Shown: piece after piece, positions 1,221-19,393 of the stretch
Layout: every line of letters starts with the position of its first letter
Numbering within the stretch: the stretch's first letter is position 1
Source: Thermodesulfobacteriota bacterium
GTDB taxonomy: Bacteria > Desulfobacterota_D > UBA1144 > Nemesobacterales > CSP1-2
DNA length: 64,000 nt
NCBI GenBank assembly: GCA_035559815.1
Contig: DATMAT010000033.1
Location: 1-64,000, forward strand
Direction of reading: 5' to 3'
The notes under the pieces: model-generated
What the model was told of the DNA's origin: nothing
Database searches by the model: none
What the model saw: only the letters and a program-made list of their open reading frames with translations
Made by a program: the position numbers and the translations under genes

Positions 1221-1250
1221 TCAATTTACCCTCTTAAACCAGGGCCAGAA

Positions 1251-2246: not shown

Positions 2247-2351
2247 CCTGAATGGAGTATGGCAACGCCATTGACACCAGGCCACTGACAATGCCGTCGT
2301 ATACTTTCGCCAACTGTGATTACTTGGCGACGTATTAACCACACAATCAGG

Positions 2352-3302
2352 ATGAGATTCATAGGAGTAAGAGACCTTTATTTACTTTCCGTGATGGTAT
2401 TAATTCAAGTATTAAGTTGGTTCTCCTCGCCTGGAATAAAACAGTTCTTCAAAAAGGGCATCACATCCATGGCCTATCAATTTTCCAGGAGAAAAAGACG
2501 TATTAGCGAAAAAAATATTTCAACGGTTTTTGGCCAAGACCTCAGCGAAGTCCGGAAAAAGGAGATTGTCAAAGGGAACTTCTACGAATTCTGGAACGAG
2601 GTTTTTTCCTTGTTCGTTTCCAGTGCAGAAAAACAATCCCTGAAAGGAGCCGAGATCCGTGGACTAGACCATCTGCACACCGCACTCAAAAAAGGGAATG
2701 GAGTAATTCTATGGGAGAGTAACAGTTTTGGGGGAAGGAGCTTGGCAAAACGAATCCTTCATGAAAATGGATTTTCCCTATACCAGGTGCACGCTAGGTC
2801 CCACATTGGAGGGTTTGCCAATGTTATGGCCCCAGAAACATGGGTGCGCCATCATATCATTAGGCCATTTTTTGAAAAACTTGAAAAAGAATTTATCGAA
2901 GAGATCATATACCTGCCTAATTCGTCCTCCCTTGCTTTTACCAGACAGCTCTGGGGCATGTTGGCGCAAAACAAGATCATATGTATCACCGGCGACGGCA
3001 GATTAGGGCAAAAACTGATACCTCTCCAATTTCTTGGTCACACTCAGTTATTCTCTACCGGAATGGTTAGCCTGGCCAGGTTATCCGGGGCCCCGATTCT
3101 ACCGATATTTTGTATTCAAAATAGGAGCGGAAATACGTGCCTGGTCATCGAGCCGCCTATAAATATAGAGGGAAACGAGGACAGAGACCAAGGGTTGAAA
3201 AATAGCGTCGCAGAATACGCCGGCTTATTGGAATCGTACATCAGAAAATATCCAGAGAAGTACCGTAGCTGGCACCATCTCGAATCGGGCGGCAAAAACT
3301 AA
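2352..3302 (+). CDS. LpxL/HtrB-like acyltransferase family protein, catalytic dyad missing
   Basis: 316 residues from ATG 2352; an in-frame GTG at 2316 is an alternative start. The fold signature is that of lipid A late acyltransferases: a hydrophobic N-terminal anchor, then GNGVIL before the active-site loop, a central ITGDGRLGQ segment, a QFLGHTQLFSTG segment and LSGAPILPIF. In the family the loop reads H-x4-D/E (HFGNWE type). Here the corresponding positions are N124 and R129 (ESNSFGGRS), so the catalytic dyad is absent. It may be an inactive homologue, or it may use different chemistry or carrier lipids. Its place between glycosyltransferases and the Mur-like genes suggests a role in modifying the glycan or its lipid carrier, but that is inference. 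Confidence 0.75.
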   Translation: MRFIGVRDLYLLSVMVLIQVLSWFSSPGIKQFFKKGITSMAYQFSRRKRRISEKNISTVFGQDLSEVRKKEIVKGNFYEFWNEVFSLFVSSAEKQSLKGAEIRGLDHLHTALKKGNGVILWESNSFGGRSLAKRILHENGFSLYQVHARSHIGGFANVMAPETWVRHHIIRPFFEKLEKEFIEEIIYLPNSSSLAFTRQLWGMLAQNKIICITGDGRLGQKLIPLQFLGHTQLFSTGMVSLARLSGAPILPIFCIQNRSGNTCLVIEPPINIEGNEDRDQGLKNSVAEYAGLLESYIRKYPEKYRSWHHLESGGKN

Positions 3303-4023: not shown

Positions 4024-5340
4024 GTGATGCGTAGTCCGTGGAAAGATATACCGGTACTCCTAAGAACCCCGATTGGACGCTCGGAGCTCATTCATGGCAT
4101 TTGGCATCGATCCTGGCCTATTCTTTCACGACTGGCTGCTCTATACCGAGGTACGGTCGTTCGAAATACCGGCGTTGTGGCTGTAGTAGGTTCATTCGGA
4201 AAGTCAACCACAGCCCGGGCGATAGCGGCTGCTCTAGGTGTGCATACTCACCCGCGTTTTCAATTCAATGCATTCAGCTCCGTGGCTCGCGCGGTTCTTC
4301 GCATCCGGCCTTATGATCGCCACGCCGTGATTGAGGTAGGAATTAATGGCCCCGGTCAGATGGAGGTCTACGCACGCCTGGTTAAACCGGACATCACAGT
4401 GGTTACATCTATTGGAAGCGAGCACAACCGTTCACTGGGAACCCTCGAAGCTACGCGAACGGAAAAATCGAAGATGGTAAGAGCACTCAAGCCAGCAGGC
4501 ATAGCAGTACTGAACGGCGATGACCCCAACGTTCTCTGGATGAAGAGTGAAACCGTGGCAAAGGTTATAACCTTTGGTATCGATAGCACAAACGATATAT
4601 GGGCGAGTGACATATCCCTCGATTGGCCTAACGGAACGCGGTTCAAACTGCATACACTAGAAGAGACACGCGACTTACGAATCAGGCTTATCGGCAGGCA
4701 TATGGTACACCCAATTCTGGCTTCGGTGGCGGTTTCCCTTGCCCGAGGATTTACCCTTGATCAAGTAATTCCAGCGCTGGAAGCTCTAGCTCCGACGCCC
4801 GGTCGAATGCAGACCGTCCCGCTTCCAAACGGAGCGTTTATTCTACGTGATGACTACAAGTCCCACCTGGAAACTATTGAAACCGGGCTCGACATTTTAT
4901 CAGAAATACCGGCACGGCGACGAATAGTAGTGCTTGGAGATATCGAGGAACCACCCGGAGAGAAGTATCCGCTATATCAACTGATTGGAGAACGCATCGC
5001 CAAAGTTGCTTCCCGAGCTATCTTCGTCGGCGGTCATAGTTGCAGAAAGTACGCTACCGGCGCAAAGCACGGCGGGATGCCTCGAGAAAGCATCAGTTAT
5101 GTCGGAGAAAACACGTTTAAAGCTATAGAGTTGCTCCGCCAGGAGATCGGGCCCGGAGACGTCGTGCTAATCAAGGGACGCGGTACCCAGCGTTTCGACC
5201 GGGTAGCCCTTTCGCTTATGGGTAAAAAGGTACGCTGCCGTATTAACTATTGTAACGTGAAGAGGCGTTGCGAACACTGCCCCATGCTGGAGCGAGGATG
5301 GAATAGCGCTACGCTAGGTCTGGAGCAGCCGAAGAGCTAA
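4024..5340 (+). CDS. Mur-ligase-like amide ligase with C-terminal Cys motif (copy 1)
   Basis: 438 residues (GTG 4024; ATG 4027 also possible). Mur ligases join an amino acid or peptide to a carboxylate using ATP. The ATP-binding loop GSFGKSTT is at residues 56-63, followed by IEVGINGPGQM and a TSIGSEHNRSLGTLEATRTEK block that matches the MurF/CapB central domain, then NGDDPNV. The P-loop is only about 55 residues from the start, so the UDP-MurNAc-binding N-terminal domain of MurF (normally about 100 residues) is missing. The C-terminal ligase domain ends in four cysteines, C405-x4-C410-x5-C416-x2-C419, then PMLERGW. Copies at 9145 and 14168 share this layout. A metal or Fe-S site is likely but not proven. 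The substrate is unknown. Confidence 0.85.
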   Translation: MMRSPWKDIPVLLRTPIGRSELIHGIWHRSWPILSRLAALYRGTVVRNTGVVAVVGSFGKSTTARAIAAALGVHTHPRFQFNAFSSVARAVLRIRPYDRHAVIEVGINGPGQMEVYARLVKPDITVVTSIGSEHNRSLGTLEATRTEKSKMVRALKPAGIAVLNGDDPNVLWMKSETVAKVITFGIDSTNDIWASDISLDWPNGTRFKLHTLEETRDLRIRLIGRHMVHPILASVAVSLARGFTLDQVIPALEALAPTPGRMQTVPLPNGAFILRDDYKSHLETIETGLDILSEIPARRRIVVLGDIEEPPGEKYPLYQLIGERIAKVASRAIFVGGHSCRKYATGAKHGGMPRESISYVGENTFKAIELLRQEIGPGDVVLIKGRGTQRFDRVALSLMGKKVRCRINYCNVKRRCEHCPMLERGWNSATLGLEQPKS

Positions 5341-5377
5341 AAATAACGGCTCGTGCCGCATAACCATATACTTTAAG

Positions 5378-6022
5378 ATGACCCGTTTATCACCCCTAAC
5401 TAGAACTAGCAATTTATTTGTGCGGGCCATTACAGTACTTCGAGAAGAAGGTATTAAAAGCTTCTGGTTCAAGTCGCTGGGAGAAATGGGCTATCGCCGG
5501 TATCTTCTGCTAGAGCGGTTGCTTGACGACCCTATACCGCATACAGAGCCCCGAGTGCCCATAACAATAGACCTGCTTAAAAAGACCGAGGCCGAGGAAT
5601 ACTCCATGTTTAGAGCAGGAGTCCAGCAGTCTGAAATCATAGCCCGGATTGACTCCGGCCATCGGTGTTTTGTGGCTCGGCATCGAGGGAAGATAATTTC
5701 CGTCACCTGGGCGACTGCAAATATGACCGTTCGTAGCTACTATCTCAATCGGGAAATTCGTTTAGGACAGGACGAGGTTTACACCTATGCTTCGTTCACC
5801 GAGCCAGACTTTCGAGGCCTATCCGTCTCGCCGGCCTTGAAGGCGGAGATGATCCGGTACTTCCGCTCGGCCGGCTACCGAAGAATGATCTGCTGGGTTC
5901 TGCCAGAAAACAGCTCTAGCTTAAAAGCGCTTCACAAAGCTGGTTTTCATACCCTGGGAATGATGGGCTACGTCCGGGTCGGACCGTGGCGAAAGGACTT
6001 TTACAGGGTTATCAATCCATGA
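5378..6022 (+). CDS. GNAT-family acyltransferase (tandem copy 1)
   Basis: 214 residues. GNAT proteins transfer an acyl group from acyl-CoA or a related thioester to an amine. The N-terminal third is a poorly recognisable helical region. The C-terminal part has the GNAT core: a beta strand GHRCFVARHRGKIIS, the acyl-CoA loop region FRGLSVSPALKAEMIRYF and then NSSSLKALHKAGF, the usual last-motif pattern. It follows the first Mur-like gene by 38 bases and its TGA overlaps the ATG of a paralogue. In this setting it could acylate an amino sugar or an amino group installed by the ligases. The acceptor is unknown. Confidence 0.85.
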   Translation: MTRLSPLTRTSNLFVRAITVLREEGIKSFWFKSLGEMGYRRYLLLERLLDDPIPHTEPRVPITIDLLKKTEAEEYSMFRAGVQQSEIIARIDSGHRCFVARHRGKIISVTWATANMTVRSYYLNREIRLGQDEVYTYASFTEPDFRGLSVSPALKAEMIRYFRSAGYRRMICWVLPENSSSLKALHKAGFHTLGMMGYVRVGPWRKDFYRVINP

Positions 6023-6687
6023 GAAATATAACCAGTCTGAATCGGGCAGGAGGAGACTCGATTAAACTGCATTCACTAAAACGAGCAGTCAAAATATTAA
6101 AAGATGACGGTATCAAGAGTTTGTCCTTAAAACTGCTGGACGAAACGCGCATTTACCGACGGGTGCTCTTGCTTGAACGCCCACTGGATCAAATCACTCC
6201 GAATATAAAACCTAGAATTCCGGTGAAAATAGACCTACTGAAAGAAACTGAGATAGATGAGTATCTCGCATTATACACCGGGCCAAATCCCTCCCCTGCT
6301 CCTGGTCGGTTTAGCTCCGGCCATTTGTGTTTCGTTGCACGCTATGATGGACAAATTATTTCCGCTTCTTGGGCTGCTACTGATAAAGCCTGGAGCCACT
6401 ATCTTTCTAGAGAAATTCTGCTGAAACAGGATGAAGTCTACATCTTCGACTCTTTTACCAAGCCTGATTTTCGCGGACTATCTATCTCACCACTAGTAAG
6501 AGCGGAGATGATTCGATATTTTCGCTCTGCCGGCTATAGACGAATGATTATAGCGGTAATACCGGAAAACAGGCCAAACATCCGGGCAGTTCAAAAAGTA
6601 GGTTTCAGTCCTTTTGGTATTATGGGCTATATTAAGTTAGGGCCCTGGCGATGGGACTTTCATAAGGCAAATAAAATCGAGGGGTGA
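6019..6687 (+). CDS. GNAT-family acyltransferase (tandem copy 2)
   Basis: 222 residues from ATG 6019, chosen over an upstream in-frame GTG because it overlaps the preceding TGA (ATGA). It is colinear with the previous gene: GHLCFVARYDGQIIS, FRGLSISPLVRAEMIRYF and NIRAVQKVGF are all shared. The two are tandem duplicates that have diverged, so they probably act on different positions or acceptors of the same molecule. The stop is followed by GAGGGG and then the ATG of the next gene, so the run from 5378 to 7399 looks like one transcript. Confidence 0.85.
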   Translation: MRNITSLNRAGGDSIKLHSLKRAVKILKDDGIKSLSLKLLDETRIYRRVLLLERPLDQITPNIKPRIPVKIDLLKETEIDEYLALYTGPNPSPAPGRFSSGHLCFVARYDGQIISASWAATDKAWSHYLSREILLKQDEVYIFDSFTKPDFRGLSISPLVRAEMIRYFRSAGYRRMIIAVIPENRPNIRAVQKVGFSPFGIMGYIKLGPWRWDFHKANKIEG

Positions 6688-6691
6688 TTAC

Positions 6692-7399
6692 ATGCATAAA
6701 ATAGACCTAGGCTCACTCAAAATATACCAGGACCTCACTGACTGGAACGAAGACCGCACACTTACCGACCAGGTTAAGACTTGTATCGAGGCTCAAAAAA
6801 GGGCGGCAGCGGTTTTTTTTCAAAACAGTTTTAAGCCGGACCCTAATGCCGGTGCTGCCGCTGTCTCCGAGGAAGCACTCCAATCCATCCTCCAATCAGG
6901 ACGGGACGTGCATGGAATAGCTAAGGAAAGGGATATATCCAATGTTATTGTTTTCAATGCCAGAAACATCGGAGACTCGGTATTAAGCACACAGGTAGTG
7001 ACATTTAGGAAGTCGGTGGACGCCCTTATCTTTAAAAAGATAAAGCAAAACCTCAGGGCCAACGGAAGCTTATCGGTGGCTGCCAGCGGGCATTTCTGGT
7101 ACCCCCCTGGTGCCTATATGGGCTGGCACACAAACAGCGGAGCCCCGGGATGGAGAATGTATATAAGCCATGCAGAAGAACCGGGTAAGTCTTTCTTCAG
7201 ATACCGCGACCCTGATACGCAAAAAATCATAACCTCCTTGGACGATGAATGGAACGTACGCCTTTTTGAAATACGGAGAGACAAGCCCCTATGGCACGCT
7301 GTATACTCCGATACCAATAGATTCAGCCTGGGATACGTGCTTTATAAAAGCTCATATGCCGAATCACTTCGTCGATTAGTGAAGATGGTTCTTAAATAG
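6692..7399 (+). CDS. Putative Fe(II)/2-oxoglutarate oxygenase-like protein
   Basis: 235 residues; GAGGGG at 6679-6684 supports ATG 6692. The C-terminal half has the look of a double-stranded beta-helix oxygenase: a first metal motif H146-T-N148 (MGWHTNSGAP), a second histidine at 202 (LWHAVYSD) and a R210-x-S212 pair (TNRFSLGY) of the type that binds 2-oxoglutarate C5. The usual HxD/E carboxylate is Asn here, as in some halogenase-like or inactive members, so activity is uncertain. If active it could hydroxylate an amino acid or sugar made by the neighbouring enzymes. The family assignment is by motif only. Confidence 0.55.
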   Translation: MHKIDLGSLKIYQDLTDWNEDRTLTDQVKTCIEAQKRAAAVFFQNSFKPDPNAGAAAVSEEALQSILQSGRDVHGIAKERDISNVIVFNARNIGDSVLSTQVVTFRKSVDALIFKKIKQNLRANGSLSVAASGHFWYPPGAYMGWHTNSGAPGWRMYISHAEEPGKSFFRYRDPDTQKIITSLDDEWNVRLFEIRRDKPLWHAVYSDTNRFSLGYVLYKSSYAESLRRLVKMVLK

Positions 7400-7721
7400 A
7401 TATTCATCAACAAACTTGTACAAATAAGAGATTGCTTCGTGCCAAAAGAAGGCGATTTGTCATGACGCCTCAGGCCTTGTCATTTGTGGGAGTTAAACAA
7501 CGGAATAATCTATTCAAATTCATCACTGCTAGTTAGCCATTGCTTAAACTAAGATAGACTGCACATAGGTGAAAAGAGTTGCAATATGTTCCGATAAACC
7601 ACTTTGGCACGAAGTATATTCTGATATCAACTGGTCCAGCCAAGCACATTAGGGTATATGGTTTATCCGAGCCCCTCTCCTGAATTAATTTCTTCAGTAT
7701 CACAACGTGATTTTTCAATAC
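7400..7721. other. Intergenic spacer, no gene seen
   Basis: About 320 bases separating the oxygenase-like gene from the FemAB-like gene. An AGATTGCTTCG string near 7431 is a half copy of the palindromic repeat at 3895-3963. No credible open frame or terminator hairpin was recognised. Confidence 0.5.
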
Positions 7722-8954
7722 ATGGTTGAATCCAATCAAAAATCAAAACGGTTGGTAGAAATTGCCTGGAGTTTGTATGAACGATTGCCATTAGCAGCTG
7801 ATGACGTCCTGAAATGGGGATTTCGCTATGTTCTGCCGTTCAAAAATCTCAATATGTCAGTTGCAATCCTACGTGGTCCGACCCAACTCAACGGCCGCCT
7901 TGGAACCGTGATTATTGCCGGCTCCGAACATGAAGCCGGGTACTTAATTCACCGCTTCTTTGAGGCTGAATATCAACGTGAGCCGCTAGGTAAGGTGCCA
8001 TTATGGGACTTGGGTAACACCCTAAAACAGTTGCGGACATCGGCTGACTTGACGATCGCTCACGTAGACCAGTTTTATGCCCGGATGTTCCTTAGTGCGG
8101 ATTATCTAGCTGTGCCGGAATGGGTGGGTTCCTCACTGGCTTTACCCGAAGATATTAACGAACTGGCCAATAAAAACTATAAACTTAGGAGGGAACTAAA
8201 AAGGGTATCAGGCAACAATTTCACATACGAACTGAGTCGAGTTGAAGAAGCCTTTGAACGATTTTATTGTACAATGTTTATTCCTTTCATACGGAAGCGA
8301 TACGGAGAACAAAGTGTTATCAGGAATATCCACCAGATGCGTCGGATGTTTCATCAGGGTGGTCTGTTCTTCATAAAACGTAATAACCAGCCTGTCGCCG
8401 GTCTTCTATTTGAACAACGAAACGAACAACTCAGGTCCATTGCTTTCGGCACAATCAATGGAGAATCGAAGCCTGTGGAAGAAGGCGCCTTCGCTTCGCT
8501 ATACTTACTTCTTGTCAAACACGCTTATGTCAGCGGCTGTAAGCTCGTTGACTTTGGTGGGTGCCGTCCTTCTCTGAGCGATGGTGTGCTGCGCTATAAG
8601 CACAAATGGGGCGTAAGTCTAAGAGAAAAACCTGATACGTGGTATGACTTCCTGGTATATTGGAACCGCTTTAACGGACCGATAATCTCTTTCTTTTCAA
8701 AAACACCGCTCATATTCCGAGACCATAAAGGTTTGTCTGGTTTATGTGTGATGGATCAAAAAGAACCTGCAACAAATGCTCAGGTGCGGAAGATTCATCA
8801 TTCCGTATGGATGCCAGGGCTGAAATGGCTTTATCTTATCAGCGCATCCGGCTGGCGGGCAAATATCAGCAGTCCACCACAAACATGTCTAATCGACCTT
8901 AAAAGCTCTGAAAATTTGACTCCACACAAACTCAAATTAAACGGGCTACTGTGA
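7722..8954 (+). CDS. FemAB/CelD-like GNAT acyltransferase (copy 1)
   Basis: 410 residues from ATG 7722 (an in-frame GTG lies at 7707). Features include an N-terminal region with WGFRYVLPFKNL, a long middle domain, and a C-terminal GNAT core of the Acetyltransf_6/FemAB type: QPVAGLLFEQRN, then KLVDFGGCRP and LRYKHKWGVSL near residues 275-300. The D-x-G...YK-x-K-W-G pattern is typical of BioF2/CelD-like proteins in exopolysaccharide loci. Relatives include Fem enzymes that use aminoacyl-tRNA to add amino acids, and others that use acyl-CoA; the sequence does not decide which. A paralogue lies at 10978, with the second Mur-like gene between them. Confidence 0.8.
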   Translation: MVESNQKSKRLVEIAWSLYERLPLAADDVLKWGFRYVLPFKNLNMSVAILRGPTQLNGRLGTVIIAGSEHEAGYLIHRFFEAEYQREPLGKVPLWDLGNTLKQLRTSADLTIAHVDQFYARMFLSADYLAVPEWVGSSLALPEDINELANKNYKLRRELKRVSGNNFTYELSRVEEAFERFYCTMFIPFIRKRYGEQSVIRNIHQMRRMFHQGGLFFIKRNNQPVAGLLFEQRNEQLRSIAFGTINGESKPVEEGAFASLYLLLVKHAYVSGCKLVDFGGCRPSLSDGVLRYKHKWGVSLREKPDTWYDFLVYWNRFNGPIISFFSKTPLIFRDHKGLSGLCVMDQKEPATNAQVRKIHHSVWMPGLKWLYLISASGWRANISSPPQTCLIDLKSSENLTPHKLKLNGLL

Positions 8955-9144
8955 TTGAATATAGCTATGTCTCTCTAATCACTAAAAGAAATATTAATGT
9001 AAAGATTAACGTGCTCTATGCACATCATGACATCGAGTAAAGTATGAATATGTCTATGACCAGATAATTTTGTTAGCCTAGATAGAAACGTCACTCTCAT
9101 TTTTTGAGGAAGAACAGGCTTTTTTAACGTCGAGGAGAAAAGAG

Positions 9145-10446
9145 TTGCCATATAAATGGCGCGAGATACCGGCTCTATTATCCACACCCCTGGGGCGATT
9201 TCACCTTATGCACAGTATGTACCGAAGTACCTGGCCGATTCTATCCCGTATCGCCTATACCTATCGGAGCACACTTGTCCGAAACACCCGCATCATCGCT
9301 GTTGTCGGTTCCTACGGGAAGTCAACCACGGCGCGCGCTCTAATCTCTGCGTTAGGTAAACAATATCATCCGAGCTTCCAGCGGAACTCCTGGACTGGTG
9401 TAGCCCGGGGGATTCTGCGCATTCGACCATTTGACCGACATGCCGCAATAGAGGTCGGGATCCATGGCCCTGGCGAGATGGATATATATGCCCGACTCAT
9501 CCGGCCGGACATCACCGTCGTCACCTCGATCGGGAGTGAGCACAACCGCTCCCTGGGCACGCTGGAAACGACGCGGTCAGAGAAATCGGCTATGGTAAAA
9601 ATACTCCGTGAATCGGGCCTAGCCGTGCTTAACGGCGACGACCCGAATGTTCTCTGGATGAAGAACCAGACTTCTGCCCGGGTTATAACCTTCGGCATAG
9701 GGGAAACCAACGACGTAATCGCTAGAGATATACAACTTGACTGGCCGAATGGTATGCGGTTCAAACTCCATGCTGGCGGCGAGACAAGGGCTTTAAGCAC
9801 CCGCCTTATAGGCAAGCACATGGTATATCCCATCCTGGCTACACTGGCTGTAGCCATTGCCGAGGGTCTTGACCTCGACCAGGTGATTAGGGCACTCGAA
9901 TCACTGCCTCCGACATCCGGCCGCTTACAACCGGTCAGGCTGGCAAACGGTGCTTTTATCCTGAGAGACGACCACAAATCGGGGCTGGAGACGATCGAGA
10001 CCGCACTGGACGCGCTATCGGAAATACCGGCAAAACGGCGTATCGTGGTGCTGGGAGAAGTAGAAGAGCCTCCGGGAAGCCAAGGTCCTATCTACCGGGC
10101 TATTGGTGAGCGCATTGCTCAAATCGCCTGGCAGGCTATTTTCTTGGGCGGAGATACCGGCTGTAAAAGCTATGCTACCGGAGCAAAACGCGGGGGGTTG
10201 CCGCCGGAACGAATAATAAACGCTGGAAGAAACTTATTCAAAGCGATTGAGGTTCTGCGTGAAGACCTTAAACCAGAAGACGTAGTACTGATCAAAGGTA
10301 GAGACAGCCAGAGACTGGAGCGGGTGGCCTTTTCTCTCATGGGTCTTCCCGTTCGTTGCGATATCAGCTTCTGTAATGCAAAGGTAAACTGTGAACACTG
10401 TCCCATGCTGGAGAGAGGCTGGAGAGGACGGAAAGTGGCGATGTAA
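9145..10446 (+). CDS. Mur-ligase-like amide ligase with C-terminal Cys motif (copy 2)
   Basis: 433 residues with a TTG start at 9145, supported by GAGGAGA at 9132-9138. It is colinear with copy 1 from end to end: P-loop GSYGKSTT, IEVGIHGPGEM, TSIGSEHNRSLGTLE, NGDDPNVLWMKN and VLIKGRDSQR. The terminal cysteines C405, C410, C416 and C419 have the same spacing, followed again by PMLERGW. As in copy 1, there is no room for a UDP-MurNAc-binding domain. The strong similarity indicates duplication, and keeping both copies suggests two different amide couplings. It sits between the two FemAB-like genes. Confidence 0.85.
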   Translation: MPYKWREIPALLSTPLGRFHLMHSMYRSTWPILSRIAYTYRSTLVRNTRIIAVVGSYGKSTTARALISALGKQYHPSFQRNSWTGVARGILRIRPFDRHAAIEVGIHGPGEMDIYARLIRPDITVVTSIGSEHNRSLGTLETTRSEKSAMVKILRESGLAVLNGDDPNVLWMKNQTSARVITFGIGETNDVIARDIQLDWPNGMRFKLHAGGETRALSTRLIGKHMVYPILATLAVAIAEGLDLDQVIRALESLPPTSGRLQPVRLANGAFILRDDHKSGLETIETALDALSEIPAKRRIVVLGEVEEPPGSQGPIYRAIGERIAQIAWQAIFLGGDTGCKSYATGAKRGGLPPERIINAGRNLFKAIEVLREDLKPEDVVLIKGRDSQRLERVAFSLMGLPVRCDISFCNAKVNCEHCPMLERGWRGRKVAM

Positions 10447-10578
10447 AGCCGGAAAGGATCGTACGGTGATTTCCGTAGAATATGGTCGAAGGCTACCCTG
10501 AGCGTGCTTGATAAACCAGTCTAAACTCCACTCAGGGAATTAGCAGATGTGTGCATACGCGGGCAATAAGAAATAAAA

Positions 10579-10812
10579 CCCTCGTCCGTCCTGAGCCTAG
10601 CCTGCCCTGAGTTATACCGAAGGATCGAAGGACCAACACCGGTCTTACTAATCAAAAGACCATGCTTCGACAGGCTCAGCATGAGCGGAATAGCACCCGC
10701 TGGAAAGAAAAATAAAAAACCCTTTCACACTGAGCTTGCCGAACTACTCACCACGAAGATGGATAAACCTCACGGTAACATCCCTTCACCCTGAGCGAAG
10801 ACGAAGGGTGTG
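10579..10812. repeat. Interspersed repeat cluster (CTTCGACAGGCTCAG family)
   Basis: This contains a GTCCTGAGCCTAGCCTGCC block followed by ATCGAAGGACC, then GCTTCGACAGGCTCAGCATG with an ATAGCACCCGCTGG tail, then CTTCACCCTGAGCGAAGACG. The same blocks in the same order occur at 63347-63541 on the same strand. It fills most of the 530-base space between the second Mur-like gene and the second FemAB-like gene. Confidence 0.75.
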
Positions 10813-10977
10813 TGGCAAAGTTGCAGGCCTGACCGGCTAAGTCGAGTGGTTAGGACAGCGCTAGCGTAGCAAGCATAAAAGAGGAAAACTTTTTATCTAT
10901 CTAAAGGCCCTGTTTTTCGAACTTGAACCATTGGTTTCTGATTATTTTGAACAGCAGTGAGGAAGAATGATTATTAA

Positions 10978-12216
10978 ATGACACACCCTCGGAGTAAAGC
11001 GAGCCAGTGGTTTTTGAGAGGAGCCTGGTGGCTTTATGGTTATTTGCCCGACGGCGTCGGGGATTTTCTTAAAAAGCACTACAGGTATTTACTACCTTTT
11101 AAAAATTTGCGTATAACTGTATCCATTCTACGTGGTAAAACCCATTTAAGCAGCCAAGAAGTGACCATTCTATTTGCCAATAGAGAGAACGCCGAGACTG
11201 ACTACATGACCGACCACTTTTTTGACGGTCAGTACAAGCTGGAGATAGTGGAAAATGTTTGGTCTTGGAATCTAGCTTCCACCCTGAGACTGTTGAGACA
11301 GTCCACCGATTTGACTATAGCTCGTATAGACCGGGTCTCCGCCCGTCTATTCTTCAGCCAGGATTATATTGCCGTCCCGGAATGGGTTTGCTTATCGCTC
11401 CCGGTGTCTGAGGGTCTGAAGATACCCCCTCGCCGAAGCCGCAGCTTGAAGGATGACCTGCGTATAGTGCGACGGAGTAATCTTCATCCTCATTACACCC
11501 AGAACATTTCGGACTTTGATACGTTTTACAATGAGATGTACGTTCCCTCTATTCAAAGACGATATGGTGAAAAGGCATATATACGAAACTTTTACCAGTT
11601 GAGACGAAGCCTCAAGCAAGGCGGGTTACTCTGGGTAATGCAAAACAATAAACCGATCGCCGGGCTTCTCTTTAAACGACGGGGCCAGCTCCTTCAAATA
11701 TTAGCCCTGGGCACTTTAAACGGAGAACGGACCCTGGTGAAAACAGGCGCGCTTACGGCGTGTTATTTGTTCATAATAGAACATGCCAGTAAACTGGGGT
11801 GCGAACTTGTTGACTTCGGCGGCTGCCGCCCCTTGCTCAACGACGGCTTGCTGCGGTATAAGCGCAAATGGGGAATGATCATTAATGAAAAACACGACAC
11901 CTATTATGACTATTTGGTGTACATCAATAATTTCAGCAGAGAGGTAATTTCACTGCTCTCCAATAACCCATTAATATTCAGAGACAATGGCGGCTTATCC
12001 GCCATATCTCTGATGGACGGTGAAAACCCGGCGGCGGAGACCGAAGTCGAGAGAGCGCACCATTATATGTGGATAGCGGGTTTAAGACAGCTCTATCTGG
12101 TTTCGGCTTCAGGTTGGAAAGAGAACATCAGAACCCCGGTAAAGACACGGCTGGTCGATACAAAAACACTTGAGGATTGTAAAGGTCGTCTATTCGAGGA
12201 ATATCATGACCGGTAA
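10978..12216 (+). CDS. FemAB/CelD-like GNAT acyltransferase (copy 2)
   Basis: 412 residues, colinear with the protein at 7722. Shared landmarks are YRYLLPFKNL, AVPEWV, the KPIAGLLFKRRG strand, LVDFGGCRP and LRYKRKWG, plus a common C-terminal block ending in YLVSASGW. Like its paralogue it should transfer an acyl or aminoacyl group in the cytoplasm. The next gene, the asparagine synthetase homologue, starts 45 bases later, so the two are probably co-transcribed. Two FemAB-like and three Mur-like copies alternate here, which suggests a stepwise build-up of an amide-linked structure. Confidence 0.8.
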   Translation: MTHPRSKASQWFLRGAWWLYGYLPDGVGDFLKKHYRYLLPFKNLRITVSILRGKTHLSSQEVTILFANRENAETDYMTDHFFDGQYKLEIVENVWSWNLASTLRLLRQSTDLTIARIDRVSARLFFSQDYIAVPEWVCLSLPVSEGLKIPPRRSRSLKDDLRIVRRSNLHPHYTQNISDFDTFYNEMYVPSIQRRYGEKAYIRNFYQLRRSLKQGGLLWVMQNNKPIAGLLFKRRGQLLQILALGTLNGERTLVKTGALTACYLFIIEHASKLGCELVDFGGCRPLLNDGLLRYKRKWGMIINEKHDTYYDYLVYINNFSREVISLLSNNPLIFRDNGGLSAISLMDGENPAAETEVERAHHYMWIAGLRQLYLVSASGWKENIRTPVKTRLVDTKTLEDCKGRLFEEYHDR

Positions 12217-12261
12217 AGACTACGGAACGATTTCGGTGCACGAAATAGGAAAGGTTGCCTG

Positions 12262-14157
12262 ATGTGCGGAATTTGCGGGGTAGTTTATTCCCATCCGGAA
12301 AGGCCGGTTGATAGGGAAATGCTCCGTCAGATGACCGAGATTATGGCCCATCGCGGCCCGGACAGCCAGGGTTTTCATATTGCGCCCGGGGTCGGCCTGG
12401 GAATTAGGCGCCTGAGTATTATAGACCTGGAAGCCGGGGACCAGCCGATTTTTAACGAAGACGGGTCCATAATCGTCGTTTGTAATGGAGAGATTTATAA
12501 TTTCAAAGAGCTCAGGCAAGAGCTACTGGCCCGCGGCCACCGTTTTAAAACCCACTCGGACATAGAGGTAATCGTTCATCTTTATGAAGACCATGGTGAA
12601 GAATGCGTCAGCTATTTAAGAGGTATGTTCGGCTTTGCCTTATGGGATAGAAACCGCCGCCAGCTTATGCTCGCCCGAGACCGTCTCGGCATAAAACCGC
12701 TATTTTACTCTACGAACATGGAAGGGATATACTTTGGCTCGGAGATAAAGTCCATACTGATGAGCGGCGGTATAGAAAGGGAAATGGACGTGAAGGCACT
12801 CAAGGATTTGTTCAACCTGGGTTTTGTCCTTTCACCCAAGACCCTATTTACCCGGATTCGTCGGCTGTTGCCCGGACATTATCTTCTTTATCGGGACGGC
12901 AAATCATCCATTCGCCAATATTGGGACGTTCGCTTTCCGACGCGGGGTGAAGATACGCCTCGAAGAAGCCAGCAGGAATGGGCCGAATTACTCAGGTATA
13001 AGCTAGAGGAATCCGTAAGAATTCATTTACGGAGCGACGTTCCCGTCGGGGCATGGCTAAGCAGCGGAATCGACTCTAGCTCCATCGCTTCCCTGATGAG
13101 CTTAAATAGCGATCGCCCTATAGAGACCTTCTCTCTCGCATTCGAGAACCAGCGGTTTGACGAGATAAGCCAGCAGAAAACCTTGAATCACTTTAAGTTC
13201 TATAATCTCGATAACCGACAGGCGCTATGTACTGCTAAGGACTTTGAGATTCTGCCCAAGGCTGTATGGCACTGCGAGGACCCATTCACCACCGGCGTCG
13301 AGATTCCTCAAATGATCCTCTCTCAGTTGGCGTCAAATAGCGTCAAGGTAGTACTGACCGGAGAAGGTTCCGACGAAATCTTCGGGGGCTATCCCTGGTT
13401 CATAACCCACAAGCTATTACAGCCCTTCACAAAGCTCCCCAGGGGGATGCAAAGATTCTTGGCCCGGATGCCGGCGGTCAGAAGAAGATGGCCGCGGGCA
13501 AGCCGAATACTCAGCGCTCCATCCGAGATGAACCTGGCTCGATATAAATTTGTCATCGACTCCGGAATTGCCGAGTTTGATGACCAAATCTTTTCCGACG
13601 ACCTGAGATACAAACTATCCGACCAATCTAGTGCCGAAGACTCCCTAAGCCTCCCCCGAGAGTTCAATAGCTGGCATACCTTTGCACAACTGCAATACCT
13701 GGAACTGAAGGTGCGTCTCCCGGACTATATTACTAGACACTTAGATGCAGCCTCCATGGCCTATTCACTGGAAGCGCGAGTGCCCTTCCTGGACCATGAA
13801 CTCGTGGAGTTCTCCACTCAAATCCCACCCTCTTTGAAAATGCGAGGCGTTCAGGAAAAACACATACTCCGCCAAGCTATGCGCGACGTTTTACCCAGGG
13901 AAATTGCCCAGCGAAAGAAGCGCGGACTCTCCGCCCCGTACGCACAATGGGTGGACGAGCTACCGGCATTTGCCTCGGAATTAATGTCCGAAAACTGTCT
14001 CAGAGAAAAAGGATATTTTAACCCCGAGTTTATGACCCAGTTGGCTGGGCAACACGGACTTAGGAAGACCGTCCACAGTAAGTATTTGATGGGCGTCCTC
14101 GGAATTCAGCTTTGGGACGACCTTTTCATGAAAGGCTGTAAGCCTCGGAATCAATAA
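12262..14157 (+). CDS. asnB: Asparagine synthetase (glutamine-hydrolysing) family amidotransferase
   Basis: 631 residues, full length for class B asparagine synthetases. Cys2 of MCGICG is the glutaminase nucleophile; HRGPDS (30-35) and CNGEIYN (74-80) are the other glutaminase-domain motifs. The synthetase domain has the ATP pyrophosphatase loop LSSGIDSS at 266-273, where the usual SGG reads SSG, and GEGSDEIFGGYPWF further on. AGGAAAGG precedes the ATG. In surface-glycan loci, homologues amidate uronic acids or other carboxylates rather than free aspartate, and the setting among Mur-like ligases favours such a specialised role. The symbol denotes the family, not proven asparagine synthesis. 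Confidence 0.9.
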   Translation: MCGICGVVYSHPERPVDREMLRQMTEIMAHRGPDSQGFHIAPGVGLGIRRLSIIDLEAGDQPIFNEDGSIIVVCNGEIYNFKELRQELLARGHRFKTHSDIEVIVHLYEDHGEECVSYLRGMFGFALWDRNRRQLMLARDRLGIKPLFYSTNMEGIYFGSEIKSILMSGGIEREMDVKALKDLFNLGFVLSPKTLFTRIRRLLPGHYLLYRDGKSSIRQYWDVRFPTRGEDTPRRSQQEWAELLRYKLEESVRIHLRSDVPVGAWLSSGIDSSSIASLMSLNSDRPIETFSLAFENQRFDEISQQKTLNHFKFYNLDNRQALCTAKDFEILPKAVWHCEDPFTTGVEIPQMILSQLASNSVKVVLTGEGSDEIFGGYPWFITHKLLQPFTKLPRGMQRFLARMPAVRRRWPRASRILSAPSEMNLARYKFVIDSGIAEFDDQIFSDDLRYKLSDQSSAEDSLSLPREFNSWHTFAQLQYLELKVRLPDYITRHLDAASMAYSLEARVPFLDHELVEFSTQIPPSLKMRGVQEKHILRQAMRDVLPREIAQRKKRGLSAPYAQWVDELPAFASELMSENCLREKGYFNPEFMTQLAGQHGLRKTVHSKYLMGVLGIQLWDDLFMKGCKPRNQ

Positions 14158-14167
14158 ACGAAGTTGA

Positions 14168-15445
14168 ATACAGTTCATAAATTCAAGCATAAAAAAAAAT
14201 GTCTTTCTCTGGGAATGCTTCCTGAGGCTCCTGTATTTACTCGCATACCTATGGCGTCTATTTCTTTTCCGAACAACCTTTATAGCCATAACCGGAAGCG
14301 TAGGAAAAACGACAACCAAAGAGTGTCTAGGGGCCATACTCTCCGCTCATTTTCCTACCGCTATGACTCAATACAATCAAAATGATGCTTACGGTGTCCC
14401 CCGTACCATACTTCGAATAAGACCATGGCACCGATTTGCCGTGGTGGAAATCGGAACCAGCCGACCGGGGCGGGTCGGTAAATTAGCTAGACTGGTGAGG
14501 CCTCATATCGCTATCGTGCTGGCAGTGGCCAGGACACACATCAACTTCTTCAAGACACTAGAAGAAACAGCCAGAGAGAAGGCCCGGATTTTGGAGCCTC
14601 TTTCCTCCGACGGATTGGCCATTCTGAACGCTGACGACCCACGCGTGCTAAGAATGGCCGACAACTGCAAGTGCAAAGTGAAGACGTTTGGTCTATCGAA
14701 AGAGTATAATCTATGGGCCGATGAGATATCGTCAAAATGGCCCGAACATCTGACCCTTAGGGTGCATACCCGGTCTCAGGCCGAATGGATTAAGACTAAT
14801 TTGGTCGGGGAGCACTGGGTGAGCTCGATTTTGGCCGCTGTCCTTGCGGCCCTTTCCTGCGGAATTTCGCTCAAAGATGCAGCCGCGGCACTGGAGAAAG
14901 TCAACCCGGCTATGGGTCGTATGCAGCCGGTAGTTGTTCCTTCCGGAGCTATTATTCTACGGGATGAAGAAAACGGCTCGTCGGATACTTTGCTGCCGGC
15001 ACTGAAGGTCTTGAAAGAAGCCGAAGCTAAGCGTCGGGTACTGGTTATGAGTGATATCTCCGATTCTCGTGATAAGCCCCGTGACCGGCTTAAGAAATTG
15101 GGAAAGACTGCCTCACAAATAGCCGACCTAGCAGTCTTTATCGGTGAACACGGGCATCACGCTGTAAAGACGGCCATCGCGTCCGGGATGAAACCGGAGC
15201 AGGCTCTTCATTTTAAAGACCTATACCGAGCGGCTCTATACCTACGGTCAGAGCTTCGGAGTGGAGACCTGGTGTTGCTGAAGGGACGAATTACCGACCA
15301 TCTCTCCAGGTTATTCCTGGCCCAGTTTGGACCAATCGGCTGCTGGAAGACTAAGTGTGGGAAGACTTTTCTTTGCGATATCTGTAAGGAGTTAAAACCA
15401 GAGTTCGACCTGGGCGGTTTAGAATCAAGACTATTTATTCAATGA
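14168..15445 (+). CDS. Mur-ligase-like amide ligase with C-terminal Cys motif (copy 3), start unresolved
   Basis: The frame is open from 14168. The first in-frame ATG (14363) lies after the ATP-binding loop, since codons 14291-14320 encode TGSVGKTTTK and belong to the protein. Upstream, hydrophobic residues (LLYLLAYLWRLFLF) match the other copies. No standard start exists in this frame before the P-loop. A TTG at 14164 would read into it if the A9 run at 14191-14199 lost one A, so a frameshift, transcriptional slippage or sequencing error is likely. Downstream, VVEIGTSRPGR, NADDPR and the final C-x4-C-x5-C-x2-C (15341-15385) match copies 1 and 2, but the protein is more diverged and the PMLERGW tail is absent. 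Confidence 0.75.
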   Translation: MQFINSSIKKNVFLWECFLRLLYLLAYLWRLFLFRTTFIAITGSVGKTTTKECLGAILSAHFPTAMTQYNQNDAYGVPRTILRIRPWHRFAVVEIGTSRPGRVGKLARLVRPHIAIVLAVARTHINFFKTLEETAREKARILEPLSSDGLAILNADDPRVLRMADNCKCKVKTFGLSKEYNLWADEISSKWPEHLTLRVHTRSQAEWIKTNLVGEHWVSSILAAVLAALSCGISLKDAAAALEKVNPAMGRMQPVVVPSGAIILRDEENGSSDTLLPALKVLKEAEAKRRVLVMSDISDSRDKPRDRLKKLGKTASQIADLAVFIGEHGHHAVKTAIASGMKPEQALHFKDLYRAALYLRSELRSGDLVLLKGRITDHLSRLFLAQFGPIGCWKTKCGKTFLCDICKELKPEFDLGGLESRLFIQ

Positions 15446-15522
15446 AGGAAAATCATTGGTAGGGAACCATGTTATCCAACCCGTAGATAACATTTTAAGG
15501 TACCCTGGCAGAGAGTAAAATC

Positions 15523-16872
15523 GTGATTTCCCCACTAGACCAACTATTAACACTATACACATTACTGCGTCACCAATATGTCACAAGAGAGGAGGTCGTT
15601 GCGTTCCGGAATAAGAGGCTCCGGGACCTGATAGCTCATGCCTATAATAATGTCCCTTACTACCGTAAATTGCTCGACCGTGCAGGTCTTGGGCCCGGCG
15701 ACATCAAAACCACAGACGACCTCGGCAAAATCCCGGTCACCTCGAAGAACGACCTACGGTCTTTACCAGAAGAAGAAATTGTTGCACGCGGTGTAAACCC
15801 AAAAAATCTTGTTGTACGGAGGACCAGCGGCTCCTCAGGCGAACCCCTTATTATTCGCCGCACCTGGTTCGAAGAGAGGCTTCTCGGTACGATTATACTG
15901 CGTTCCCGGCAAGACTTTGGGGTGCGAATGACCGACACCACAGCCAGTATAGGGCTTGTCCGGCCAATTCTGCTCAAAGACCGCCTAACTCCGACGCATT
16001 TTCTTCAGGCGCTTGGTTTATACCGTAGGGTCGGGATTAGCTGTCTATTACCCCCAGACCGTATTTTGTCCAAACTAGAGCGTACTCGTCCCGATGCCCT
16101 GGCCGGGTTTCCCGGAGTGATTTCGCATCTGGCTCGGGTCATCTGCAACGAGGGGCGCTTCTCAATCACCCCTCGCATAGTCATGGTAGGAGGAGAAGTA
16201 CTTACCCCACTAATGCGAACACAGATTAGCAAAGCCTTCTCAGCCCCGGTTTTCGAGACTTACGGCAGCCACGAATTCAACCAGATTGCCAGACAATGTA
16301 AAGAGACGGGAGAACTGCACGTATGTGATGACAGTGTGATCCTCGAGGTTGTTAAAGACGGCCGCCCCGTCGAAATCGGCGAGAGAGGCGAGGTCGTTTG
16401 CACAGGCCTCCACTCCTTTGCTATGCCCTTCATCCGGTACAGGTTAGGGGACATTGTCACCAAAGGATTAGAAATTTGCCGATGCGGACAGCCTTTTTCG
16501 ACGATAAGCACGGTACAGGGGCGTATGCTAGATTATTTTTCTCTCCCGGGAGGACGAATGGTGCATCCTTACGAGATTATACGCATTATCGTCAGCGACA
16601 TAGCCCCGTGGGTTAGCCAATACCAACTGATACAGGAGAGTGTGGACCGGATTACCTGTCTTGTAGTACCCTCTGCCAATCCTACTCCCTCTCAAGTGGC
16701 AGTAGTAGAGGATTCCGCAACCAAATTGCTAGGACCGGGAGTGGAATTCCGGATAGTTCTGGTCCTCGAGATACAATTCGATTCAAACGGAAAGTTCCGT
16801 GTGGCCCGTTCGATGGTGAAGTCCGATTACGACGAAATCGACTGGAATCACCCAGAAAAGGTTAGTCCCTGA
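15523..16872 (+). CDS. Phenylacetate-CoA ligase/CapK-like adenylate-forming enzyme
   Basis: 449 residues, GTG start with GAGAG upstream. The ANL superfamily activates a carboxylic acid as an acyl-adenylate. The AMP-binding loop TSGSSGEP is at 101-108, YGSHEF at 247-252, and YRLGD at 306-310. Four cysteines near CRCGQP and ARQC...HVC could bind zinc, as in some PaaK relatives. CapK-like members are common in capsule loci, where their acid substrate is usually unknown. Here it could activate an acid for transfer by the GNAT or FemAB-like proteins. No acyl-carrier protein gene is seen nearby. Confidence 0.85.
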   Translation: MISPLDQLLTLYTLLRHQYVTREEVVAFRNKRLRDLIAHAYNNVPYYRKLLDRAGLGPGDIKTTDDLGKIPVTSKNDLRSLPEEEIVARGVNPKNLVVRRTSGSSGEPLIIRRTWFEERLLGTIILRSRQDFGVRMTDTTASIGLVRPILLKDRLTPTHFLQALGLYRRVGISCLLPPDRILSKLERTRPDALAGFPGVISHLARVICNEGRFSITPRIVMVGGEVLTPLMRTQISKAFSAPVFETYGSHEFNQIARQCKETGELHVCDDSVILEVVKDGRPVEIGERGEVVCTGLHSFAMPFIRYRLGDIVTKGLEICRCGQPFSTISTVQGRMLDYFSLPGGRMVHPYEIIRIIVSDIAPWVSQYQLIQESVDRITCLVVPSANPTPSQVAVVEDSATKLLGPGVEFRIVLVLEIQFDSNGKFRVARSMVKSDYDEIDWNHPEKVSP

Positions 16873-16882
16873 GCTTTCAACT

Positions 16883-18286
16883 ATGTATATGACCGAATTC
16901 GACCGAGATAATGATATAAGCTCCATAGTCGAAACCTTGGGTGACTCCAATGTTACCCAAATATTCGTACACAGCGTCACCTCGCTTAAGAACATCGGCG
17001 AGTATATCAAAATTAAGCCGGAATTAGCCAAATATTCGGAAAGAGCCCTGGTATTGGCAAGGCCTGACGATTTGGTCTGCGTTCCGTACGATGTAGACAA
17101 CCAGCATCTTCAATTCCTCTCCGGACTGGCTGTAGGCACTAAAAAAGAAAAAGTAATAGTTGCTTCTGGTGGCGTTAATACCGGCGTCGGGGCAAGTCTA
17201 TCTGACCTAGTAGCTGCTAATCCTGATGCGCTTTTGACAATTAGAAGGCTGATTAAGCCCAACAAGAAAATTATCCTGAACCCTTACATAACAACCCACC
17301 GAGAAATTAGGCTGGCTTCCACTTTAGAGAAGGTTCTAGCCACGAAAATCCATCTCGATGGTGGAGCCCCGGAGGCAGTCTGCTATGCCGACCAAAAGTG
17401 CAAGGTCAGAAATAAAGCACTCGCACTCGGAATACCGGTTCCCCAAGGCGAAGTTATAGAAATCATGCGGGGAGAAGATGGAAGGCCCTTAAGCATGACA
17501 CCGATCGAGTCCGGCGTAGGCCGCCACATCCATAGAACCGGTAGAGTGGTTATCAAAGGAACTCATGGGACATCCGGAGATTCAACCTTCATCGTAGAAA
17601 AAGGTGCTCCTAGCATAAAGCAAGCTCTAAACGAGATTGCGGAGAAAGACTACAACACCACATATATCGTAGAGTCTATGATTGATTTTACCGTCTCTCC
17701 AAACGTTCTGATGTATATAGAGCCCGGCAAGGGCGATATTTTCTGCGTGGGCATCACCGACCAGGTCCTTAATGAAAACCTGATGCACGAGGGCAACATT
17801 TACCCATCCGTAGCTAACACGTTAAAAGATATGGTACTTTCAGCCAGGACGCTATCAAGGTGGCTGCAGGCGAAGGGATACAGCGGTTTACTGGGGTTCG
17901 ATTTCATAGAGTATTTTGACCGGGAAAAGGGTCTATACCAGCACTATCTTGCCGAAATCAACCCGAGAACCAACGCCGCCACCTATCCCCGAGCACTCAT
18001 GGAACACCTTAATAAAGAGCAGAAAAGAAAAGGACGGCCGATTATCCAGGCATTTCTCTCACTCAACGTCAGGACGAAGGCGATTTCGTTCGCAGACATC
18101 GAGAAATTATATGACCACTCATTCTTTGACCCGGAAACCGGCAAAGGATTGGTTCCTTTCAATATCGGCTGCCTGGAATACGGCAAGTTTACCGCGGCTC
18201 TTTTTGGAAAAACCAGAAACGAGGTTTTGAACATTTATAAGGACCTCTCTATACTGTCACAAAAGGAAGAAGAACAATTAAAGTAG
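16883..18286 (+). CDS. ATP-grasp carboxylate-amine ligase-like protein
   Basis: 467 residues (ATG 16883; ATG 16889 also possible). The N-terminal 130 residues look like a pre-ATP-grasp domain (VASGGVNTGVGAS near 94-105). The ATP-grasp part has a glycine-rich lid with a lysine (VVIKGTHGTSGDST, 222-235), GLLGFDFIEY (335-344) and the metal-binding E358-I-N360-P-R362 motif followed by a Thr/Ala-rich turn. That last motif recalls PGM1-type peptide ligases and other preATP-grasp proteins. Such enzymes make an acyl phosphate and couple it to an amine. It begins 10 bases after the PaaK-like gene and ends 3 bases before a glycosyltransferase, so it belongs to the same operon. The substrates are unknown. 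Confidence 0.75.
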   Translation: MYMTEFDRDNDISSIVETLGDSNVTQIFVHSVTSLKNIGEYIKIKPELAKYSERALVLARPDDLVCVPYDVDNQHLQFLSGLAVGTKKEKVIVASGGVNTGVGASLSDLVAANPDALLTIRRLIKPNKKIILNPYITTHREIRLASTLEKVLATKIHLDGGAPEAVCYADQKCKVRNKALALGIPVPQGEVIEIMRGEDGRPLSMTPIESGVGRHIHRTGRVVIKGTHGTSGDSTFIVEKGAPSIKQALNEIAEKDYNTTYIVESMIDFTVSPNVLMYIEPGKGDIFCVGITDQVLNENLMHEGNIYPSVANTLKDMVLSARTLSRWLQAKGYSGLLGFDFIEYFDREKGLYQHYLAEINPRTNAATYPRALMEHLNKEQKRKGRPIIQAFLSLNVRTKAISFADIEKLYDHSFFDPETGKGLVPFNIGCLEYGKFTAALFGKTRNEVLNIYKDLSILSQKEEEQLK

Positions 18287-18289
18287 ATT

Positions 18290-19393
18290 ATGATGAACAT
18301 GCAATACTCTACCCCCTCGTTTCAAAATAAGACGCCCTTCATCTCGATTATTATTCCAGTGCATAATGGGGAGAACTATATCGATAAGTGTTTAGATTCA
18401 ATACTTGCCTCTACTTATAACCCTTATGAAATCATAGTCGTCGACGATGCCTCTACAGACAAAAGCGCTGAAATCAGCAGGGGAAAAGGTGCGTCGGTAC
18501 TTCGACTGGACCGCCAATCCGGTCCGGCGGCCGCGCGCAATTTTGGCGCTGAGAAAGCAAAGGGAGAAATACTCTTTTTCGTCGATTCCGACATAGTAGT
18601 CAAGCCTGATACCATTACTCGCATAGCTGAAGACTTTATGAAGAATCCAGAAATTGTGGCTGTCTTCGGCTCTTATGATGACAGTCCTGCTGCCTCTGAC
18701 CTGTTGTCCCAGTATCGGAATCTTTTTCACCACTACATACACCAAAATTCTCAATCGGAAGCAAAAACCTTCTGGGCGGGCTGCGGCGCTATTTATCGGG
18801 AGATCTTCCATCAACTCAATGGTTTCGATGAATATCTCTACACTAAACCGTCCATCGAGGATATAGAACTGGGGCTACGGATGTGGAAAAGAGGCTACCG
18901 AATTCTTCTAGACAAAGAGCTTCAGGTTAAACACCTGAAGCACTGGAAATGGCGAAGTTGTCTGAAAACAGACATCTTTGACCGCGCCATCCCCTGGTCC
19001 AGGTTGATTCTGGAGAGCGGTTTATTACCGCGTGATTTAAACCTCCAAATCCCCCACCGGATAAGCGCTTTATTAGTAGGGATATTAGTTCTCACGGTTA
19101 TCGTCTCGCTTTTAGGCGCTCTTAATCTGTTCAAATTCCCCGCAGATAATTTTTTCATAGCTTCTTTGGCGCTAATCGCCACGCTCCTAATCCTTAATCG
19201 AAAGGTATACGGGTTTTTCTATCGGGAGAGGGGACTAAAATTCACTGTCACGGCTATACCACTTCATTTCCTCTACTATTTTTACAGCGGCACTTCTTTT
19301 GCCGCATGCTGGCTTCTTCATAGGTTTCCGATTTTACGCTCGGTCTTGCACAAGGCCAATGCTTTCGCCCAAAGTCTTCTTCAAAGAAATTGA
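18290..19393 (+). CDS. Glycosyltransferase family 2, membrane-anchored
   Basis: 367 residues. Classic GT2 motifs are present: ISIIIPVHNGENYI, EIIVVDDASTD, GPAAARNFGAEKAKGE and FFVDSDI (DxD). After an acceptor-side block (GCGAIYREIF, then EDIELGLRMWKRGY), the C-terminal 110 residues hold two or three hydrophobic helices, so the catalytic domain is held at the membrane. The layout resembles polyprenyl-phosphate glycosyltransferases or chain-extending GT2 enzymes with helical tails. It begins 3 bases after the ATP-grasp gene. The next gene is a paralogue. Confidence 0.9.
   Translation: MMNMQYSTPSFQNKTPFISIIIPVHNGENYIDKCLDSILASTYNPYEIIVVDDASTDKSAEISRGKGASVLRLDRQSGPAAARNFGAEKAKGEILFFVDSDIVVKPDTITRIAEDFMKNPEIVAVFGSYDDSPAASDLLSQYRNLFHHYIHQNSQSEAKTFWAGCGAIYREIFHQLNGFDEYLYTKPSIEDIELGLRMWKRGYRILLDKELQVKHLKHWKWRSCLKTDIFDRAIPWSRLILESGLLPRDLNLQIPHRISALLVGILVLTVIVSLLGALNLFKFPADNFFIASLALIATLLILNRKVYGFFYRERGLKFTVTAIPLHFLYYFYSGTSFAACWLLHRFPILRSVLHKANAFAQSLLQRN

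Follow-up and report, generated by a model that had tools for sequence, protein, structure and literature searches.

A clade of MurF-derived ligases and its recurring partners in a bacterial surface-glycan locus

The stretch of DNA analysed here (the window) comprises 64,000 nucleotides from a Thermodesulfobacteriota bacterium (GenBank assembly GCA_035559815.1, contig DATMAT010000033.1, positions 1 to 64,000). Near its left end a set of eleven genes, hereafter the cassette, lies at positions 4024-18286 within a surface-glycan locus and specifies three Mur ligase-like proteins (Mur1 to Mur3), two GNAT-family acyltransferases, two FemAB-fold transferases, an AsnB-type amidotransferase, a CapK-type ligase, an ATP-grasp ligase and an oxygenase-like protein. 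The Mur-like proteins constitute a distinct ligase clade derived from MurF which, with FemAB and in one case AsnB, forms a real module recurring in genomes of another phylum. This clade and its recurring partner suggest a little-known route by which amino acids may be attached to a glycan of the cell surface. Found in glycan loci together with conserved partners, the MurF-derived clade is a variation on the pathways for amino-acid-decorated glycans, and not a wholly new system.

The Mur-like proteins

Mur1, Mur2 and Mur3 all exceed the Pfam cut-offs for Mur_ligase_M and Mur_ligase_C, and against TIGR01143 (murF) they score 174-197 bits, under the cut-off of 288.6 bits. The profile match begins past domain 1 of MurF, and the N-terminal domain which binds UDP-N-acetylmuramic acid (UDP-MurNAc) is missing. 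The AlphaFold model of Mur2, which is 66% identical to Mur1, has a predicted local distance difference test (pLDDT) value of 87, and its top PDB match is MurF (4qf5; E 1e-28, template modelling (TM) score 0.77). Three helices (residues 5-43) occupy the place of the UDP-binding domain in this model. All eight members of the group have basic N-termini (charge +5 to +10) of moderate to strong amphipathicity, and judging from these sequences the helices may serve in peripheral membrane binding.

Like MurF, the proteins keep the middle and C-terminal domains and the ATP/Mg core with its P-loop, Mg-binding Glu and catalytic His and Lys; an alignment reveals G55, S56, G58, K59, E103, H133, K147, R260, D275 and K384 as invariant and common to both. 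They differ from MurF in the basic N-terminal helices, in the replacement of the motif Y-N-A-N-P by K-S-x-x-E-T (in every member bar the divergent Mur3), in the four-cysteine (Cys4) tail, C-x4/5-C-x5/6-C-x2-C, which ends every member and is of low confidence in the Mur2 model, and in their place in the phylogeny.

Maximum-likelihood analysis unites the eight members in a single clade (support 100/99), and the genome's own MurF, encoded on contig C31, groups with the MurFs of its relatives. In view of the separate clade and the presence of this MurF, we rejected the idea that the proteins are MurF paralogues for peptidoglycan synthesis. The Cys4 tail by itself is not unique to the clade, since the true MurFs of two other genomes (G277 and G136) carry a similar one. 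True MurFs with both a UDP-binding domain and a Cys4 tail are located at L096 1471-2916 and L097 1492-3093, and these branch apart from the Mur-like proteins.

The whole genome (3.97 Mb) contains eight Mur_ligase_M matches, three of them in the cassette, a clustering which is not due to chance. Four of the other five are on C31, where one was confirmed as MurF and the remainder are dcw-like by position, and the last, on contig C42, looks like FolC.

Recurrence in other genomes

A profile of 55 positions, taken from the C-terminal region of the Mur-like proteins, was searched against 387 genomes, and revealed one other high-scoring locus (G102) and a decayed copy in G005. Within the phylum of G102, which differs from that of the window, the profile detected the protein in 3 of 82 genomes (G102, G429 and G436), so that the clade is found in just five of the genomes sampled, that of the window and G005 included. 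The runs in G102, G429 and G436 share, in this order, genes for an S-adenosylmethionine (SAM) methyltransferase, a Mur-like protein, a radical SAM/SPASM protein and a FemAB protein; in G429 an AsnB gene, the product of which is 44% identical to the window AsnB, is inserted between the methyltransferase and Mur genes. An independent search for the radical SAM protein led to the same three of the 82 genomes and to the same places, an overlap with a chance probability of about 1e-5, although shared ancestry makes this figure a guide only. The best NCBIfam match of this SPASM-type protein is to the mycofactocin maturase, under the cut-off.

Since Mur and FemAB lie in one run in three genomes of another phylum, and the radical SAM gene is present in exactly those, we conclude that Mur and FemAB, with AsnB as an occasional member, are a real recurring module. 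The first-pass annotation, made from the window sequence, had proposed a search of genomes for co-occurrence of the Cys-tailed Mur proteins with FemAB, AsnB and ATP-grasp genes, and its interpretation would have been refuted had close homologues never stood together. Mur and FemAB do stand together, in all three of these genomes, and AsnB joins them in one; a survey of 290 other genomes revealed no shared ATP-grasp locus.

The surroundings are also shared in part. Three of the four intact loci with both Mur and FemAB, including two of the three in the other phylum, have a glycan-gene setting. In G102 the gene after FemAB specifies a family 2 glycosyltransferase (GT2) 44% identical to GT2c of the window, and the regions read in G102 and G436 include homologues of the GT2a/b type.

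Mur2 is 58% identical to a member from G436 (designated MurC), and no intact copies were seen in relatives from the window's own class; taken together these make lateral transfer likely. The locus in G005, a member of the same family as the window genome, is a decayed relative of the cassette (L078 16211-17425, contig C58): its Mur fragments, 69% identical, lie in several frames with the first third missing, and the decayed Mur and an AsnB fragment are found beside an intact CapK-type gene. This remnant (L009) was the sole match when genome contigs were searched with Mur2, and no Cys-tailed Mur was present in five genomes of the phylum to which G264, a carrier of a FemAB homologue (see below), belongs. 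Carriage by plasmids (no match at E 1e-40) or by viruses (just three remote Mur matches, 22-33% identical) was rejected.

Partner enzymes

Assignments of the first-pass annotation to the Mur, GNAT, AsnB, CapK and ATP-grasp families were borne out by Pfam or PDB matches; those to FemAB hold by fold, under the Pfam cut-offs, and the oxygenase-like protein keeps its name from a motif alone. GNAT1 and GNAT2 are 53% identical and FemAB1 and FemAB2 are 44% identical. The Mur and FemAB pairs being paralogues, the cassette holds duplicated Mur/FemAB units. A Foldseek search with the FemAB model was led by FemX and Sbb17, with A-PGS, L-PGS and MprF in the top 20, and the model displays the tandem GNAT fold of FemX, at modest TM-scores. 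Against TIGR03019 the window FemABs are remote (16-23 bits). AsnB exceeds the cut-offs of the asparagine synthase Pfam family and of TIGR01536, and gives its highest score with TIGR03108 (541 bits, under the cut-off of 816.9). CapK finds its PDB matches among the phenylacetate-CoA ligases (E 3e-29), and the ATP-grasp protein is over the Pfam cut-offs for PreAtp-grasp and ATP-grasp_3.

The oxygenase-like protein had no Pfam or PHROG family match. Three remote phage homologues (L104, L105 and L106) were its only relatives, with no match in 156 other genomes, and H146, N148, H202 and R210 are invariant among them. Compared with the 2-oxoglutarate/Fe(II) triad (H-x-D/E ... H plus Arg), an Asn stands at the usual Asp/Glu. 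The ATP-grasp protein was surveyed in 290 other genomes, 4 of which gave matches, all remote (26-31% identity); the two neighbourhoods read had no gene in common with the window. Homologues of FemAB occur without Mur in many other loci; in G264 (L079 2-4566, contig C169) one such gene is in a run with a polysaccharide flippase, CapK and a pyruvyl transferase. The GNATs, oxygenase, ATP-grasp and CapK genes look like local additions, our own surveys having covered the ATP-grasp and oxygenase genes.

Organization of the locus

The eleven genes, listed in order in Table 1, are all on one strand and belong where the first-pass annotation had placed them; its description of a glycan-locus setting was likewise correct, with glycosyltransferases on both flanks, an LpxL-like acyltransferase upstream and an ABC-2-type exporter downstream. 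Spacing is tight from FemAB2 on (3 to 77 bp) and wider (190 to 531 bp) between the oxygenase-like gene, FemAB1, Mur2 and FemAB2.

Table 1. Genes of the cassette and the glycosyltransferase gene which follows it
Gene	Position	Strand	Assignment	Remarks
Mur1	4024..5340	+	MurF-like ligase without UDP-binding domain, Cys4 tail	
GNAT1	5378..6022	+	GNAT-family acyltransferase	over Pfam cut-off
GNAT2	5986..6687	+	GNAT-family acyltransferase	over Pfam cut-off; overlaps GNAT1
Oxygenase-like	6692..7399	+	oxygenase-like protein	motif H-x-N ... H ... R alone; no Pfam family
FemAB1	7707..8954	+	FemAB-fold transferase	fold match
Mur2	9145..10446	+	MurF-like ligase without UDP-binding domain, Cys4 tail	
FemAB2	10978..12216	+	FemAB-fold transferase	fold match
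AsnB	12262..14157	+	AsnB-type glutamine-dependent amidotransferase	TIGR01536 over cut-off
Mur3	14171..15445	+	most divergent MurF-like ligase, Cys4 tail	start codon ambiguous
CapK	15523..16872	+	PaaK/CapK-type adenylate-forming ligase	
ATP-grasp	16883..18286	+	ATP-grasp ligase with pre-ATP-grasp domain	
GT2c	18290..19393	+	GT2 glycosyltransferase	3 bp past ATP-grasp gene

Upstream of the cassette are two GT2 genes and the LpxL-like acyltransferase gene (together 219-3302). The latter (2316-3302) separates the GT2 genes from the cassette, and its product may attach a lipid either to the glycan or to the carrier of the glycan. Downstream, GT2 genes follow directly, with a GT1 gene, a split Stealth gene, a sulfotransferase gene and the ABC-2/ABC transporter pair, the exporter being 13 kb from the cassette. 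The Stealth-type sugar-phosphate transferase gene is split into open reading frames for CR1/CR2 (22173-22595) and CR3 (22666-23040). Since the window starts at the left end of its contig (C33), the locus may extend beyond it.

Ahead of its first ATG (14363) the frame of Mur3 is open from about 14171, with an intact P-loop near 14288; no ATG, GTG or TTG start is found in the upstream part (14157-14363), which includes a run of nine A residues at 14191-14199. A rare start codon, a frameshift or an assembly error at this run are possible explanations.

Comparison with known systems

The closest parallel is the Wbp/Vim pathway for the linking sugar of Porphyromonas gingivalis and Tannerella forsythia, in which the AsnB-type enzyme WbpS makes a uronamide, VimA (FemAB family TIGR03019) is thought to place Ser or Gly on the sugar amine, and the product is a 2-N-aminoacyl uronamide sugar (PMC7468200). 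As in the window, an AsnB-type and a FemAB-type enzyme are specified by one glycan locus, and the window proteins match, under cut-off, the families of WbpS (relatives of which match TIGR03108) and VimA (TIGR03019-like). Unlike the window, the Wbp/Vim pathway has no Mur-like ligases, GNAT pair, ATP-grasp protein or CapK described. The annotated part of the window, to which inspection was limited, showed neither the VimE deacetylase nor WbpA/B/D/E.

The same two families make the window AsnB and FemABs remote relatives, again under cut-off, of proteins in XrtA/PEP-CTERM exopolysaccharide loci. No exosortase was detected in the window genome, G102, G429 or G436; of six genomes tested G264 alone possesses one. 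The product is therefore not an XrtA/PEP-CTERM linker, and that system was ruled out. Within the open-access literature, most subscription papers being outside our scope, we found no account of the Mur-like clade or operon, nor of the gene combinations searched.

Proposed function and alternatives

Our tentative reading, which we prefer to the others though with less than even confidence, is that the products of the locus make a surface glycan and carry it out of the cell, one of its sugars receiving amino-acid or amide groups from the cassette enzymes. The sugar so modified would be lipid-linked, and the nearest analogue would be the Wbp/Vim pathway (WbpS plus VimA), with the MurF-derived ligases as the new element. 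The Wbp/Vim chemistry, the family scores of AsnB and FemAB and the FemAB fold matches lead us to place the Mur-like enzymes as putative amino-acid ligases acting on a lipid-linked glycan intermediate; a membrane substrate fits because the UDP-binding domain has been lost and basic helices gained. At the membrane they would couple, at the expense of ATP, an amino acid (or amine) to the carboxyl of a lipid-linked sugar or, alternatively, to the carboxyl of an aminoacyl chain already on that sugar, which would extend the chain. The FemAB proteins would transfer aminoacyl groups, probably from aminoacyl-tRNA, to sugar amines, as proposed for VimA, and AsnB would cap a carboxylate as the amide, like WbpS. 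CapK, the GNATs, the ATP-grasp protein and the oxygenase-like protein might provide strain-specific tailoring, by activating and transferring acyl groups, forming another amide bond and hydroxylating. We infer in this way the substrate, the amino acid, the order of steps and the chemistry. The first-pass annotation had suggested, for the set as a whole, stepwise addition of amino acids or acyl groups to a carboxylated sugar, or synthesis of a small peptide-like molecule exported with the glycan; this was right in kind for Mur, FemAB and AsnB, in view of their recurrence and the Wbp/Vim parallel, and is not supported for all eleven genes as one pathway, the ATP-grasp and oxygenase-like genes having no partner locus elsewhere.

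Several observations weigh against the proposal. The TM-scores of the FemAB model are low (0.3-0.5), so that use of aminoacyl-tRNA is conjectural, and with Y-N-A-N-P replaced the amino substrate of MurF cannot be assumed. Among the window genes annotated, none for uronic-acid synthesis was seen. The methyltransferase and radical SAM protein, conserved partners elsewhere, are missing from the window, and a search found no radical SAM partner in the window genome's class. The G429 run (L089 6051-12338, contig C46) is not part of a glycan locus, its neighbours being ArsR-like and permease genes, and G436 has an additional tandem Mur pair which stands alone.

The compact G429 run, in which five genes follow one another in the order methyltransferase-AsnB-Mur-radical SAM-FemAB, bears also on an unlikely but serious alternative: that the product of the core is a small peptide-like metabolite, assembled step by step through non-ribosomal ligation, the glycan setting being partly incidental. 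The SPASM-type radical SAM protein, with its match under cut-off to the mycofactocin maturase, agrees with this, as does the prediction of Mur ligases in peptide-making operons (PMC2922099), but the preponderance of intact loci among glycosyltransferases, with shared GT2 homologues, does not, and the surroundings of the core showed no precursor peptide, non-ribosomal peptide synthetase or dedicated exporter. We attach the same low probability to the view that just Mur and FemAB, with or without AsnB, belong together, and that the others are unrelated genes which a variable glycan locus has gathered, each acting on a sugar of its own. The surveys of the ATP-grasp and oxygenase-like proteins and the FemAB loci without Mur, such as that of G264, are in its favour; the close spacing or overlap of several genes on one strand throughout, and the persistence of Mur, AsnB and CapK side by side in G005, though decayed, speak against it.

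MurT and CapB also have no UDP-binding domain, and MurT, whose substrate is lipid II, contains a Cys4 zinc site. That the Mur-like proteins are likewise accessory peptidoglycan enzymes, acting on lipid II rather than on a surface glycan, is very improbable: their MurF fold with its lost domain and these likenesses to MurT would suit such a role, but Pfam shows no MurT C-terminal domain in them, no GatD-like gene is adjacent, the genes lie among GT2 genes, and the clade occurs in just five of the genomes sampled. From MurT/GatD, CapB/PgsB and CphA, which are Mur-domain ligases not belonging to the core MurC-F set (PMC11915815), they differ in having no MurT C-terminal domain, GatD or ATP-grasp fusion.

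Returning to glycan decoration, a broader proposal, which we consider possible but less probable than the reading for the locus itself, is that a new branch of Mur ligases, freed of UDP-MurNAc recognition and working with FemAB-fold partners, often also with radical SAM and methyltransferase proteins, attaches amino acids to membrane-bound intermediates of glycans other than peptidoglycan and has passed as a module from phylum to phylum.

Significance

Surface sugars which bear amino acids are known in O-antigens, in capsules and in the linking sugar of the type IX secretion system. For the last of these, the amide-forming enzymes worked out are AsnB-like and FemAB-like (PMC7468200). If our proposal is true, a branch of the Mur ligases at work outside peptidoglycan would bring another class of enzyme to amide formation on surface sugars, and would be an example of a cell-wall ligase re-used through the loss of one domain; the Cys4 tail in combination with the K-S-x-x-E-T motif would then be a sequence marker for aminoacylated glycans.

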